From positions 46,840-110,839 of the forward strand of contig NZ_JADMKT010000075.1 in the NCBI RefSeq assembly GCF_016786255.1: a stretch of 64,000 nucleotides of DNA, read 5' to 3'. This DNA comes from Robertkochia sediminum. GTDB lineage: Bacteria; Bacteroidota; Bacteroidia; Flavobacteriales; Flavobacteriaceae. The notes under the pieces are model-generated. The model saw only the letters and a program-made list of their open reading frames with translations. It was not told the DNA's origin and made no database searches. This document shows positions 9,329-15,039 of this stretch, piece by piece. A program made the translations under genes and the position numbers. The first letter of the stretch is position 1. Every line of letters begins with the position of its first letter.

Positions 9329-9401
9329 CGCGGGATAGAGCAGTAGGTAGCTCGTCGGGCTCATAACCCGAAGGTCACTGGTTCGAGTCCAGTTCCCGCT
9401 A
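9329..9401 (+). tRNA. Initiator tRNA-fMet (CAT)
   Basis: A 73-nt cloverleaf can be drawn: acceptor CGCGGGA/TCCCGCT, D arm GAGC/GCTC, anticodon arm TCGGG-CTCATAA-CCCGA, and T arm ACTGG-TTCGAGT-CCAGT. Two hallmarks identify the initiator: the unpaired C1-U72 end and the three consecutive G-C pairs in the anticodon stem. CCA is not encoded. The 3' 42 nt are shared with a second partial copy at 14989, which marks this tRNA as the integration site of a mobile element. Confidence 0.96.
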
Positions 9402-9410
9402 CTAGCAAAA
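9360..9410 (+). other. attL: 51-bp direct repeat overlapping the tRNA-fMet 3' end
   Basis: The 51 bp from the anticodon loop to nine bases past the tRNA are identical to 14989-15039. Identity stops sharply on both sides (G/C mismatch before, T/C after). This is the expected product of site-specific integration into a tRNA 3' end by a tyrosine recombinase. Confidence 0.93.
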
Positions 9411-9412
9411 TC

Positions 9413-9442
9413 AAGGCTTCTGAGAGATCAGAGGCCTTTTTT
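9413..9442 (+). terminator. Terminator of tRNA-fMet supplied by the element
   Basis: An 11-bp stem (arms 9413-9423 and 9428-9438) with loop GAGA and a T6 tail follows the tRNA and lies inside the element, just past the attL repeat. The presumed original terminator, of the same design with a GAGA loop, lies beyond attR at 15036-15066. Confidence 0.85.
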
Positions 9443-9457
9443 GATTCCAAAAATTGG

Positions 9458-9478
9458 CCCGGGTACAATATAGGTCAA
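9458..9478 (+). repeat. Candidate integrase arm site, left copy
   Basis: This 21-bp sequence (core GGGTACAATAT, then GGTCAA) differs at one position from 14859-14879 near the other end and has the same orientation. A second short pair, TTAAATGGTATTA at 9528-9540 and TTAAACGGTATTA at 14893-14905, lies further along. Paired short repeats flanking the core site are typical of tyrosine-integrase arm sites; binding is inferred. Confidence 0.6.
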
Positions 9479-9630
9479 GCGAAATCCGCCTATTCCTGCT
9501 TTTTTTCATTCCCCTATAAAATTGACCTTAAATGGTATTATCAGAGTATAAAAACCCTCAAAAAAAAATTAAAATTATTTTTTGTTTGTCCTGTTTGGGA
9601 ATCGCTAAATGGAGGAATAAGTCAAATAAG

Positions 9631-9669
9631 CTCGTTTACCCGGCCTGAAATGGGGGCCTGTAAAGGAGA
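9631..9669 (-). terminator. Hairpin downstream of the element's outer-membrane gene
   Basis: An imperfect hairpin (CTCGTTTAC...GTAAAGGAG with inner GGCC/GGCC) lies about 64 bp after the stop at 9733. It is related in sequence to the hairpin at 17511-17548, which ends the CocE-type operon. The U tract is poor, so function as a terminator is uncertain. Confidence 0.45.
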
Positions 9670-12357: not shown

Positions 12358-13138
12358 CAAAGGCTTCGATATAGACATTACTCATCGGCAACTTAACCTG
12401 ATTACTCAATCTTGAGTTTCCAGCTTCAGATAACACTCTCCCTCTTTTGACACCTTTTTTATGTCGCTGCATTAGGTTCTTTTTATATGTGTTTAAGTCA
12501 ATCCATTGTGCATTTTCTGTATCCGGTCGAGGCAATTCTATTTGGCTAAATCGTTTAGTTGGATATTCTAAAGATTTGAAGTAAAAATATATCTCTTTAT
12601 TCTTGTCATATGCCTCCAAAATAAGGCCGGGTAGTCCATACAGTTTCCATGGTCCAAATGGAACGGGAATCTCAGGGCTAAACCAGGCCGTGTACTCACG
12701 ACCTCTGAATGAACCAGTCGCTTTAATACAATCTAAAGCACCTATTTTTTTTGTTTCCTGACTAATCTTCCAATCAATAACCGGAATCTCTTCCTTAACA
12801 TAATTCGATCCAACATTACTGGAATTTAGGGAATTATCAATTCTATTAAAATGACAAATTAAACCATTAGGAAATGTGGCCTTATTAATGAAATAATGTT
12901 GATTCTTATTTTCAATATGAGTCATTTTATTTATCGGACCACCCTCCAGGGAATCCTTTCGAAATACATAGGACGATTGATTCTGGTTAAAGGTTAAATA
13001 GGCATTATAATCAATTCCAACGGGAGCCCCCATTCCAAAACTTTGTATATGGCCATACTCCACTAAGCCATACCTATTTTGAGAATGAAGAATTTGAGTT
13101 ATGATAATGCAGGATAGAAAAATTAATTTTTTAATCAT
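12350..13138 (-). CDS. GLPGLI family protein (element cargo)
   Basis: The protein has 262 residues with a signal peptide (ending ILHSQ). It carries the family signature GLPGLI at residues 168-173, preceded by the usual AWFSPEIPVPFGPWKLY. The family is a Bacteroidota group of secreted proteins, commonly encoded beside a beta-barrel outer-membrane protein; its biochemical role is not established. Here it is the first gene of a two-gene operon. The 467-bp spacer upstream (13139-13605) must hold its promoter, but no perfect TAnnTTTG box was found. Confidence 0.9.
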   Translation of the reverse strand: MIKKLIFLSCIIITQILHSQNRYGLVEYGHIQSFGMGAPVGIDYNAYLTFNQNQSSYVFRKDSLEGGPINKMTHIENKNQHYFINKATFPNGLICHFNRIDNSLNSSNVGSNYVKEEIPVIDWKISQETKKIGALDCIKATGSFRGREYTAWFSPEIPVPFGPWKLYGLPGLILEAYDKNKEIYFYFKSLEYPTKRFSQIELPRPDTENAQWIDLNTYKKNLMQRHKKGVKRGRVLSEAGNSRLSNQVKLPMSNVYIEAFDE

Positions 13139-13605
13139 GTTTCACAGATCTAGACAGTTGTAGGCCATATTACTTTTTTGAACTCCTTCACAACTCGTTT
13201 CTCACTGAATTATTTATTACTTCATTTATGCCTCCTGGAAAAAGTTCCACCTTAATTCCTATAAAATATCGAATATAAGCTATATGATAGAATTAGCAAA
13301 AGGTATTCTGACCTTTTAATTTTATCCTTTAGTATGCATTGTATAATGAATAGCGAGAGGGTAACACGCTAAAGCGATGTTACGGATAGTAGGATTCCTT
13401 TCAATCCTTTGTGATTACTGACGAAACCCTAACCTCATTTTTACTATAAAAAGGAAGTCTTTTAGTAAGGTGTTAGCCATCACATTTCATAGGATTAGTT
13501 ATGGAAGATTAGGGGCTTACAACCTACTCAAAAAAGAATTTCGAGAATAATTTCAACCTTTCGCGGTATAAAATATCTCCGTTTACAAACGTTTAATTAG
13601 TAATA
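13139..13605. other. Spacer inside the element
   Basis: This 467-bp A+T-rich region lies between the integrase and the cargo operon. Only very short open frames (under 20 codons) are present on either strand. No excisionase-like gene, tRNA or repeat was recognised. Confidence 0.6.
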
Positions 13606-14814
13606 CTAGAAATTCACCACCTTATCCAGGGCATCGTCGGCTTCCCTCTGCATAAAGCTAGCCTGATAAGTGATAGTGGTAGTGATGGAAGAATGGCGAT
13701 ATAATTTTTGCAACATCTGGATAGAAATCTTATCACCGGAAATATTACCAAAGGTATGGCGTGCAATATGCATAGATAATTTCTTATCAATACCCAATTT
13801 ATCAGCAATAAGCTGCAACCTTCTGTTAATGGTTCTGGTAGCGGTCCGGATCCTGGTAAGGACCTGCAACTTATCATCAAAATTGGTCCCCTTAAGATAG
13901 TCAAACACCAGGTCATTTTTTAAAATGGCATCCTTACGATATATGGCAAGAATCTGTTCAGCCTTTTCCGGCACCTTCAGCGAAACCAGTTTCTGGTTCT
14001 TATTCATACGATATAACAACCTGCCATCATTGAAATCACTCCACCGGAGCTCCAAAACATCACTTACACGTATTCCGGCAAAATAGAAACTTATAAGCCA
14101 TACGTGTAAAGCTCTCAATTGTGCTTCAGTGAGATCCTCTGCGCTTTCCAACTTTACCACCTCCGAGATCGACAAACCTATTTTCTGAGATTCAGGAATC
14201 TTAATCGTGATCTTACCTCTTCCAAAGGGATACTTTGCCCTGGAAGCCACCCCCTCGGCTATGGCCATGTTATAGATCTTACGGATCATGATCAGGTAAT
14301 TTACAGCCGTTCTTGGTTTCCTTTTCTCCTGATTCAGAATAAATCCCTCAAATTTCTTTAACACATTTACGGTAATCTCATCAAAGGGTATATTACCCGG
14401 TCCTAAGAACTTCCTGAACTTCTCCACCCTGGCTTTTTGGGTCTGGTACTGCCGGTACTTTTCTGCTCGTTTAAGATTATCCAGATGAATATTAGCCATA
14501 TCGAAGAAATCGAGTCGATCCTCCCCTTTCACCCTTTTGCGCACTCCCTTAGCACTGATATGTTCTCCGTTAATCTCCGCTTCCAGTAACTTATCGTTGA
14601 CGGCTGCCAGTTTTTTGACAATAAAATGATTTAAACGAGTGGCATTGGGATGACCGGATCTAACCAAACCCCGATCTTTATCCCAAAATCTCGGAGCAAT
14701 ATATTGACCGGTAAAAACATAAGAAGTCTGTCCGTTTTTTGTGATCCGTATAGTAATTGGATACAAACCCCGGGAGTTCATCTTCTTCTTCAAAACTGCC
14801 CTTACCGATGCCAT
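13606..14814 (-). CDS. Tyrosine recombinase (integrase) of the element
   Basis: The protein has 402 residues with the three-part architecture of Bacteroidota integrases. These are an N-terminal arm-DNA-binding domain (about 1-90), a SAM-like core-binding domain (about 103-200) and a catalytic domain (about 213-400). Catalytic residues are visible: R249 (AGIRVSD), H349 and R352 (HIARHTF), H374 (YRHSS) and the nucleophile Y383 (ITYQ). A lysine near 273-275 fits the beta-hairpin position. The gene begins 175 bp from attR, the usual place for int beside attP, and is transcribed into the element. It appears complete and active. Confidence 0.95.
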   Translation of the reverse strand: MASVRAVLKKKMNSRGLYPITIRITKNGQTSYVFTGQYIAPRFWDKDRGLVRSGHPNATRLNHFIVKKLAAVNDKLLEAEINGEHISAKGVRKRVKGEDRLDFFDMANIHLDNLKRAEKYRQYQTQKARVEKFRKFLGPGNIPFDEITVNVLKKFEGFILNQEKRKPRTAVNYLIMIRKIYNMAIAEGVASRAKYPFGRGKITIKIPESQKIGLSISEVVKLESAEDLTEAQLRALHVWLISFYFAGIRVSDVLELRWSDFNDGRLLYRMNKNQKLVSLKVPEKAEQILAIYRKDAILKNDLVFDYLKGTNFDDKLQVLTRIRTATRTINRRLQLIADKLGIDKKLSMHIARHTFGNISGDKISIQMLQKLYRHSSITTTITYQASFMQREADDALDKVVNF

Positions 14815-14858
14815 TTTTTACAACTGAATTCGAATAAAGTTACCTATAAAAAATGGTA

Positions 14859-14879
14859 CCCGGGTACAATATGGGTCAA
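14859..14879 (+). repeat. Candidate integrase arm site, right copy
   Basis: It matches 9458-9478 at 20 of 21 positions, in the same orientation. It lies between the integrase start and attR, overlapping the probable int promoter region, so occupancy could also influence int expression (inference). Confidence 0.6.
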
Positions 14880-14988
14880 ACATTTTGTGATATTAAACGG
14901 TATTATTTGAATTCAACAAAAATTAAAAACCCAGTAATAACAGGGGATTGAAGCATTTTGATGAATATTGATTTCCCTTCCAGCCCCC

Positions 14989-15039
14989 CTCATAACCCGA
15001 AGGTCACTGGTTCGAGTCCAGTTCCCGCTACTAGCAAAA
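14989..15039 (+). other. attR: displaced 3' part of tRNA-fMet
   Basis: It is identical over 51 bp to 9360-9410 and comprises the anticodon loop through the 3' end of tRNA-fMet. It lacks the 5' half of a tRNA and so is not a functional gene. It marks the far boundary of the element. Confidence 0.93.

Follow-up and report, generated by a model that had tools for sequence, protein, structure and literature searches.

A probable relaxase-less mobilizable island with a MOBB-type origin-of-transfer mimic at the initiator tRNA gene of Robertkochia sediminum

We analyzed a 5.63-kb segment within a 64,000-nucleotide stretch of Robertkochia sediminum DNA (contig NZ_JADMKT010000075.1, positions 46,840 to 110,839; hereafter the window), which an earlier sequence-only reading had described as a minimal integrative element in the initiator tRNA gene (tRNA-fMet). 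The segment is likely a relaxase-less integrative mobilizable element of the iOriT or mobilizable genomic island (MGI) type, which would rely on its own integrase for excision and on a helper element with a MOBB relaxase for transfer. It combines a site-specific integrase with attachment (att) repeats that have an empty counterpart in relatives, and it carries a site related by homology to the origin of transfer (oriT) of conjugative elements; no relaxase or mating-pair gene was found, its three genes being named otherwise. Since it carries a mimic of the oriT of larger conjugative elements, the island probably spreads via their machinery. Neither the relaxase and type IV secretion system (T4SS) of an integrative and conjugative element (ICE), nor the relaxase gene of a canonical integrative mobilizable element (IME), nor the structural or packaging genes or close phage integrase of a prophage or phage satellite were found in it. 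The features on which this assignment draws are as follows.

9329–9402, plus strand: initiator tRNA-Met(cat) gene, the target site (ARAGORN; Rfam tRNA agrees), its 3' part supplied by the element
9360–9410, plus strand: attL core repeat, 51 bp, perfect (repeat comparison, identity re-checked)
9458–9478, plus strand: left arm-type direct repeat CCCGGGTACAATATAGGTCAA, candidate integrase arm site, 20 of 21 positions identical to the right copy
9528–9541, plus strand: second small arm repeat, left TTAAATGGTATTAT, 13 of 14 positions identical to 14893–14906 (E 0.063, weak alone)
13344–13400, plus strand: oriT mimic (held-out model R2, E 3.7e-5 in 908 kb; covariation)
13352–13360, plus strand: core of the oriT mimic, AGCGAGAGG (motif pattern)
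13361–13383, plus strand: hairpin of the oriT mimic, GTAACA..TGTTAC (covariation and pairing statistics)
13345–13515, plus strand: wider non-coding stretch, about 70–77% shared with other host copies of the oriT-like site
13606–14814, minus strand: tyrosine integrase, 402 aa (Pfam domains, motifs, tree)
14859–14879, plus strand: right arm-type direct repeat CCCGGGTACAATATGGGTCAA, candidate integrase arm site, 20 of 21 positions identical to the left copy
14893–14906, plus strand: second small arm repeat, right TTAAACGGTATTAT, 13 of 14 positions identical to 9528–9541 (weak alone)
14989–15039, plus strand: attR core repeat, 51 bp, perfect (repeat comparison, identity re-checked)

The oriT mimic lies in the gap between integrase and cargo (13139–13605), which holds no open reading frame (ORF) longer than 26 aa. 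The first matches to its motif were 23 bp in the ICEs G138 and G310 and in L057, and 38 bp in an island of Flagellimonas sp. S3867; in the ICEs the motif immediately precedes a BfmA/BtgA-type gene and a MobB relaxase. An alignment of 17 copies served to build a covariance model, R1. In the six-pair stem of this alignment 96.9% of cells are paired versus 90.9% after shuffling (0 of 500 shuffles reach 96.9%), three pairs have changes on both sides, and slid versions of the stem stay at or below 61%. In 1.35 Mb of sequence, much of it from loci chosen because they carry the motif, the core-plus-hairpin pattern has 29 matches, versus one with the core reversed; its only match in the window is at 13352.

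Searches with R1 gave a motif match in 145 of 397 Flavobacteriaceae genomes, and a MobB relaxase was found in 108 of the 397. When 150 listed motif places (89 genomes) were compared with 151 relaxase places (that of the host added to 150 listed ones), 75 motif copies proved to be within 3 kb of a listed relaxase, every one of them on the relaxase strand and 503–747 bp upstream; four of the 75 (G138, G310, G131, and host contig C68) were among the training copies of R1. On account of this fixed strand and distance, we read the motif as the probable oriT of the MobB relaxase family. The relaxase corresponds to PF18976/DUF5712, for which no paper was found in our literature search, and the host copy is MobB by NF041495 (336 bits, cut-off 200); the host genome holds a MobB locus with T4SS genes. 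MOBB has been described as confined to Bacteroidetes (PMC3158045).

Trained on nothing but 13 relaxase-linked copies, a held-out model, R2, was applied to 58 of 215 loci (908 kb), chosen for containing none of those copies. It returned 11 matches at E <= 0.0064, the next one standing at E 0.1. Four of them are in small relaxase-less tRNA-fMet islands (L034, 5.6e-9; L038, 3e-6; the window, 3.7e-5; L036, which is the S3867 island, 0.0064) and the other seven are host loci with copies that lack a relaxase; L152, which has a bare 12-mer and no hairpin, was not matched. Beyond this set, three plasmid MobB loci with relaxases of 28–32% identity have a looser core, AGCRAG[AC][AG]G, and a hairpin upstream of BfmA/BtgA, a pattern that was loosened to fit copies already seen by eye and is uncontrolled; R2, run without filters, missed these plasmid copies. 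The core at a Flavobacterium plasmid MobB locus is exactly AGCGAGAGG. A fourth plasmid stretch (L219), which starts 334 bp before its relaxase, was left out of the looser-pattern scan, and MOB-suite types four related plasmids as two MOBB, one non-mobilizable, and one MOBP.

The target tRNA-Met(cat) reads as an initiator from its C1xU72 mismatch and the three G-C pairs of its anticodon stem. The 51-bp perfect direct repeats that had been reported to bound the segment were re-derived at the same coordinates; they comprise the 3' part of the tRNA plus 8 bp, are spaced 5629 bp apart, and delimit a unit (9360–14988, 5,629 bp) that keeps the full tRNA intact at its left end. The repeat is not a dispersed one: the host genome (3.53 Mb, 82 contigs) contains one full tRNA copy and one 51-bp partial copy. 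Three of four same-genus genomes (L024, L025, and L026) have no insert at this tRNA, the left flank, tRNA, and right flank of the window (14989 to 15174–15220) being continuous, so that the empty site anticipated by the sequence-only reading does exist. The fourth (L022) has no second tRNA copy and says little on this point because its right flank diverges. With empty sites in relatives, an intact integrase, and a tRNA that stays whole, the earlier assignment to an integrative element in this gene is upheld. The initiator tRNA seems to be a much used insertion site, as 9 of 59 other genomes searched have an extra copy running from tRNA position 31 or 32 to the 3' end or nearly so. Locus L050 (G020, contig C170) has two full initiator tRNA copies 1.8 kb apart, possibly enclosing a very small insertion.

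All three genes of the unit are on the minus strand: the integrase, a GLPGLI protein, and an 881-aa protein with a CarbopepD_reg_2 domain. This agrees with the complete tyrosine integrase and coupled GLPGLI/outer-membrane pair listed previously; that inventory overlooked the arm-type repeats and the oriT-like site. The segment is A+T-rich as had been noted (G+C 0.351 against 0.443 for the window), and the gap between cargo (0.32–0.35) and integrase (0.42) suggests that their histories probably differ. The integrase has Arm-DNA-bind_5, Phage_int_SAM_5, and Phage_integrase domains (Pfam) and the motifs GIRVSD, HIAR, RH, and TYQ, read here as the catalytic residues. No gene other than the integrase is phage-like, in accord with the earlier description, and an Rfam scan gave tRNAs only. 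Among ORFs of at least 60 aa in the element no relative was found of MobB, of one MobP-type relaxase, or of BfmA, the type IV coupling protein (T4CP), VirB4, or VirB8; the statement that the element lacks transfer functions therefore stands for genes, yet not for the oriT-like site matched to a relaxase family.

In the window the arm-type repeats have the consensus CCCGGGTACAATATrGGTCAA, and 60 shuffles reach 17 of 21 identities at best. Paired direct repeats of 20–29 bp are present in all ten tRNA-fMet elements compared (the window's and nine related ones), usually as two copies of (TA)GGTACAACA, one just inside the tRNA end and the other between the integrase start and the other core repeat. 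These paired repeats are likely arm-type integrase-binding sites.

Related integrases are widespread, with matches at E <= 1e-100 in 61 of the 397 family genomes (host included). A partial tRNA-fMet copy longer than 40 nt stands beside the integrase start in 13 of 30 loci listed, the window among them, and at 4 of 10 integrase loci (L034, L036, L037, and L038) in a one-genome-per-species collection. The expectation that the same integrase would occur with other cargos at tRNA-fMet was borne out for related integrases, in elements of 4.5 to 54 kb (sizes being the distance from full to partial tRNA): CP2B, 4.5 kb; Sediminicola luteus, 8.4 kb; Flagellimonas sp. S3867, 11.1 kb; F. meridianipacifica, 20.9 kb; G138, 35 kb; G200, 36 kb; G310, 42 kb; G131, 54 kb; and G157, with two elements in tandem, 44 and 25.5 kb. 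The G138, G131, and G310 elements are ICEs with MobB, BfmA, coupling protein, and VirB4- and VirB8-like genes all present, and the F. meridianipacifica element carries a relaxase-like gene of its own (named from sequence). L034, L036, and L038 resemble the window in having no relative of MobB, the MobP-type relaxase, BfmA, T4CP, VirB4, or VirB8. Of the G157 pair, which occupies G157:C1:708987-779021, the second element has metal-efflux-like genes by reading, and the G200 island (G200:C1:361020-396776) has a polysaccharide-utilisation-like gene set, also by reading, together with a MobB fragment.

The presence of large ICEs with related integrases at the same tRNA, one 44-kb element of G157 even carrying this gene pair in an operon next to the integrase, raises the alternative that the segment is a decayed ICE in which deletion has left an integrase, an oriT, and one operon, and which is now immobile. 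We regard this as unlikely, given that the element still has its integrase, its two arm repeats, and its two 51-bp cores intact. A maximum-likelihood tree of 37 integrases places the four small islands of the window, L034, L036, and L038, which differ in cargo and encode full-length integrases, in a clade of eight (100/99); its other members are the F. meridianipacifica element and three integrases that lack an adjoining tRNA-fMet copy (L033, L035, and L065). A separate clade of ten (100/100) contains the ICEs G138, G131, and G310 as well as the G200 island. An old line of small islands fits these separate clades better than repeated ICE decay.

Relaxase-less copies of the motif are not confined to tRNA-fMet. 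Of the listed motif places, 75 have no listed relaxase: eight of these are in the host, and 20 of the others were examined in list order, passing over two at contig starts and one that is L057. Two of the 20 have MobB after all, as a full gene in L188 and as a fragment in L197; for the other 18, searches over at most 10 kb on each side gave no relatives of either MobB or the F. meridianipacifica relaxase, other relaxase families not having been sought. A tyrosine integrase lies within 2.5 kb in 7 of these 18 loci and at 7–8 kb in two, compared with a chance of about 2% of finding one within 2.5 kb of a random point, as estimated from 16 integrase-like candidates in the 3.5-Mb host genome. These distances come from a rebuilt integrase profile, in which L204 is unlisted; the previous profile, containing at least one wrong protein, had placed a partial integrase 9.2 kb away there. 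Several orphans adjoin the 3' end of a tRNA gene (Pro, Asp, or Leu) and have a distant repeat of 15–22 bp, which is weak alone because it is short. The four orphan copies read in G003, a same-genus genome, share their stem letters, GCAACGCGC...GCTCGTTGC, with the MobB site of that genome. One orphan-oriT island of this genome, at tRNA-Pro (L189, G003:C3), has apparent RHS-type protein ends with small partner genes, as judged by reading.

It is fairly probable, in our judgment, that MOBB conjugative elements of Bacteroidota feed a large and undescribed population of relaxase-less satellites having their own integrase, a small oriT mimic, exchangeable cargo, in several cases a tRNA site, and integrase lineages of their own. 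Up to half of the MobB-type oriT copies in Flavobacteriaceae would then be theirs, with the window element among the smallest. A sequence signature for the MOBB oriT would allow Bacteroidota islands without mobility genes beyond an integrase to be recognized directly, and a three-gene island of 5.6 kb would be near the smallest kit still able to use conjugation. It also suggests a route by which envelope and peptide-export genes move between Flavobacteriaceae.

Several observations weigh against the reading of the segment as a relaxase-less mobilizable island. Core and stem are AGCA and GCAAC at the resident MobB site but AGCG and GTAAC in the window and the other seven host orphans. Of 299 family genomes, only this one has the exact AGCG pattern, in eight copies; L036, which is outside that set, also has it. 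The eight host copies share extra flanking sequence in the manner of a dispersed repeat, up to 600 bp for some pairs, and could thus have been amplified within this lineage. For six of them no integrase was seen in the stretches examined (two of these stretches are at most 2.2 kb long, others reach contig ends), and 9 of the 18 sampled relaxase-less loci likewise showed none within 10 kb. No oriT match was found in the DNA examined of L033, L035, and L133 (G160:C2), close integrase relatives without an adjoining tRNA-fMet copy, nor in the tRNA-fMet elements of G200, G157, and F. meridianipacifica. Finally, the three gaps of the element hold no ORF longer than 42 aa, so that no small gene for a recombination directionality factor (RDF, or excisionase) was seen; a helper could supply this function. 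Described Vibrio MGIs encode an RDF (PMC5704250, PMC11389934).

The host copies in particular would suit a motif that is a dispersed non-coding host repeat resembling a MobB oriT, in an element that moves otherwise or not at all. We think this improbable, as three tRNA-fMet islands of other genomes have the same site in different letters with the pairing kept, the motif holds a fixed strand and narrow distance to MobB in every linked case listed, and tyrosine integrases are close to sampled relaxase-less copies far above expectation. An integrase-only element spread by transformation, phage, or vesicles and kept for swapping surface proteins would agree with the small size, envelope cargo, and lack of transfer genes found, but is very improbable in view of the oriT-like site, the mixed cargo of relatives, and an integrase whose 33 matching records in a phage collection are all below 60% identity (25–28% for the ten listed).

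For a relaxase-less mobilizable island the course of events would be as follows. The integrase, binding the arm repeats at both ends, would join the 51-bp repeats to give an excised circle. A MobB relaxase (MOBB/DUF5712) and its BfmA/BtgA partner from a helper in the same cell would nick the oriT mimic at 13344–13400, and the circle would be exported via the helper's coupling protein and type IV system, later to re-insert at the 3' end of tRNA-fMet. The helper may be a MobB element other than the resident one. The presumed cargo of such transfer is the GLPGLI/barrel pair, which in two relatives is part of an operon predicted to export a small double-glycine peptide.

Islands with comparable traits are known from other bacteria. 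The tycheposons of Prochlorococcus are tRNA-borne islands with cargo and few mobility genes, as in the window, and we know of no link between them and an oriT. GIE492 of Klebsiella has its tRNA site in common with ICEKp1 and a microcin cargo. Like the window element, GIE492 is a relaxase-less island proposed to use an ICE (ICEKp1; PMC5704250), and it differs in phylum and relaxase. Relaxase-less integrative elements with an oriT form a known class, described as iOriT (PMC11389934) and MGI (PMC5704250). Among them are the MGIVflInd1-type MGIs of Vibrio, which also have a tyrosine integrase, no relaxase, and an oriT related to that of the helper ICE; these are gammaproteobacterial, 18–33 kb long, inserted at yicC, helped by MobH/SXT elements, and equipped with an RDF (PMC5704250, PMC11389934), whereas the Bacteroidota element of the window measures 5.6 kb, is inserted at tRNA-fMet, has a proposed MobB helper, and has no RDF seen. 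The canonical Bacteroides IMEs NBU1, NBU2, Tn4555, and Tn4399 are likewise integrated Bacteroidota elements helped by Bacteroidota ICEs, but encode their own MobP relaxase (PMC5704250), none being found in the window. The SGI1 family shares with the window element the state of an integrated island mobilized by another element and differs in its 42-kb size, its own mobilization proteins, some transfer-pore genes, and IncA/C plasmid helpers (PMC5704250). The same review of 2017 reports relaxase-less IMEs in Firmicutes and Proteobacteria and states that comprehensive searches for them had never been performed (PMC5704250). Our literature search, in which papers were mostly judged by titles and abstract starts and few subscription papers were covered, turned up no description of such islands in Bacteroidota or of relaxase-less islands with MOBB oriT sites or helpers; older Bacteroides oriT work may exist.

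The cargo of the window element consists of two genes that overlap by 29 bp.

9733–12378, minus strand: 881-aa outer-membrane barrel-type protein with a CarbopepD_reg_2 domain (PF13715; predicted barrel fold)
12350–13138, minus strand: GLPGLI family protein, 262 aa (TIGR01200, 135 bits, cut-off 50; PF09697)

Neither protein has a relative beyond chance among solved structures (best E 0.89 and 0.78). At E <= 1e-60, 15 of 397 genomes (host included) contain relatives of the 881-aa protein, and a GLPGLI match adjoins them in all 17 loci listed, eight of which were read more widely. The pair of G157 (42–47% identity) sits in its 44-kb tRNA-fMet element in the order VKOR/C39-like protein (named by Pfam), 74-aa double-glycine peptide, GLPGLI, barrel, C39 ABC transporter, HlyD, and integrase. 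G421 has the same operon order away from tRNA-fMet, with transporter and HlyD confirmed by Pfam and a peptide that matches TIGR04149 (26.1 bits, cut-off 25). Ahead of the pair, L111, L112, and L116 encode a small protein that contains cysteine and has a signal-like start; no such protein was seen in L114, L115, and L117. Small cysteine-containing peptides lie directly upstream of the pair at L113:7669-7911, L111:12474-12752, L112:9135-9425, and L116:7817-8011 and in G157, and several of them have a C-x-D-G or C-D-G stretch and look like a peptide family matched to the pair.

In the window neither peptide nor transporter stands beside the pair, and no cognate peptide was found because the gaps have no ORF longer than 42 aa. 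The pair is tentatively taken to form the outer-membrane component of a small-peptide system serving export, uptake, or immunity. Oar of Myxococcus is a reported precedent for a TonB-type transporter needed for secretion (PMC6434023); on GLPGLI function nothing useful was found in print, judging from the literature listing. The label of a receptor-like pair given by the sequence-only reading is not established, since two relatives hold the pair in small-peptide export operons. Its suggestion of selection for swapping surface proteins fits the envelope cargo here and is too narrow for the related elements, whose cargo is mixed: a histidine kinase with lipoprotein-like genes, a sigma/anti-sigma/TonB-receptor-like set, a polysaccharide-utilisation-like set, and a giant adhesin-like gene (labels mostly from reading).

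An attI/cassette reading of the motif, prompted by repeats of about 140 bp between genes in other host contigs, was dropped as the leading interpretation because the motif's orientation to the integrase is inconsistent (opposite in the window and L146, on the integrase strand in L034, L036, and L038) and because of the MobB link. These repeats lie between successive small genes in a cassette-like arrangement at L146:499-656, L147:12207-12334 and 12789-12941, L150:10956-11102 and 12090-12238, and L149:9740-9894 (host contigs C53, C54, C72, and C60, respectively), and in L146 a tyrosine integrase and an oriT-like site are at one end of the repeat-bearing island. Just outside the element, an ORF at 16761–17414 of the window has a weak Imm11 immunity match (19.9 bits, below the cut-off of 22.1). 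A further host contig, C50, has four related units spaced 114–123 bp apart (L137:20-441), each with a tiny ORF of the type MEKIIFAAAGLIVAII, read from the letters.

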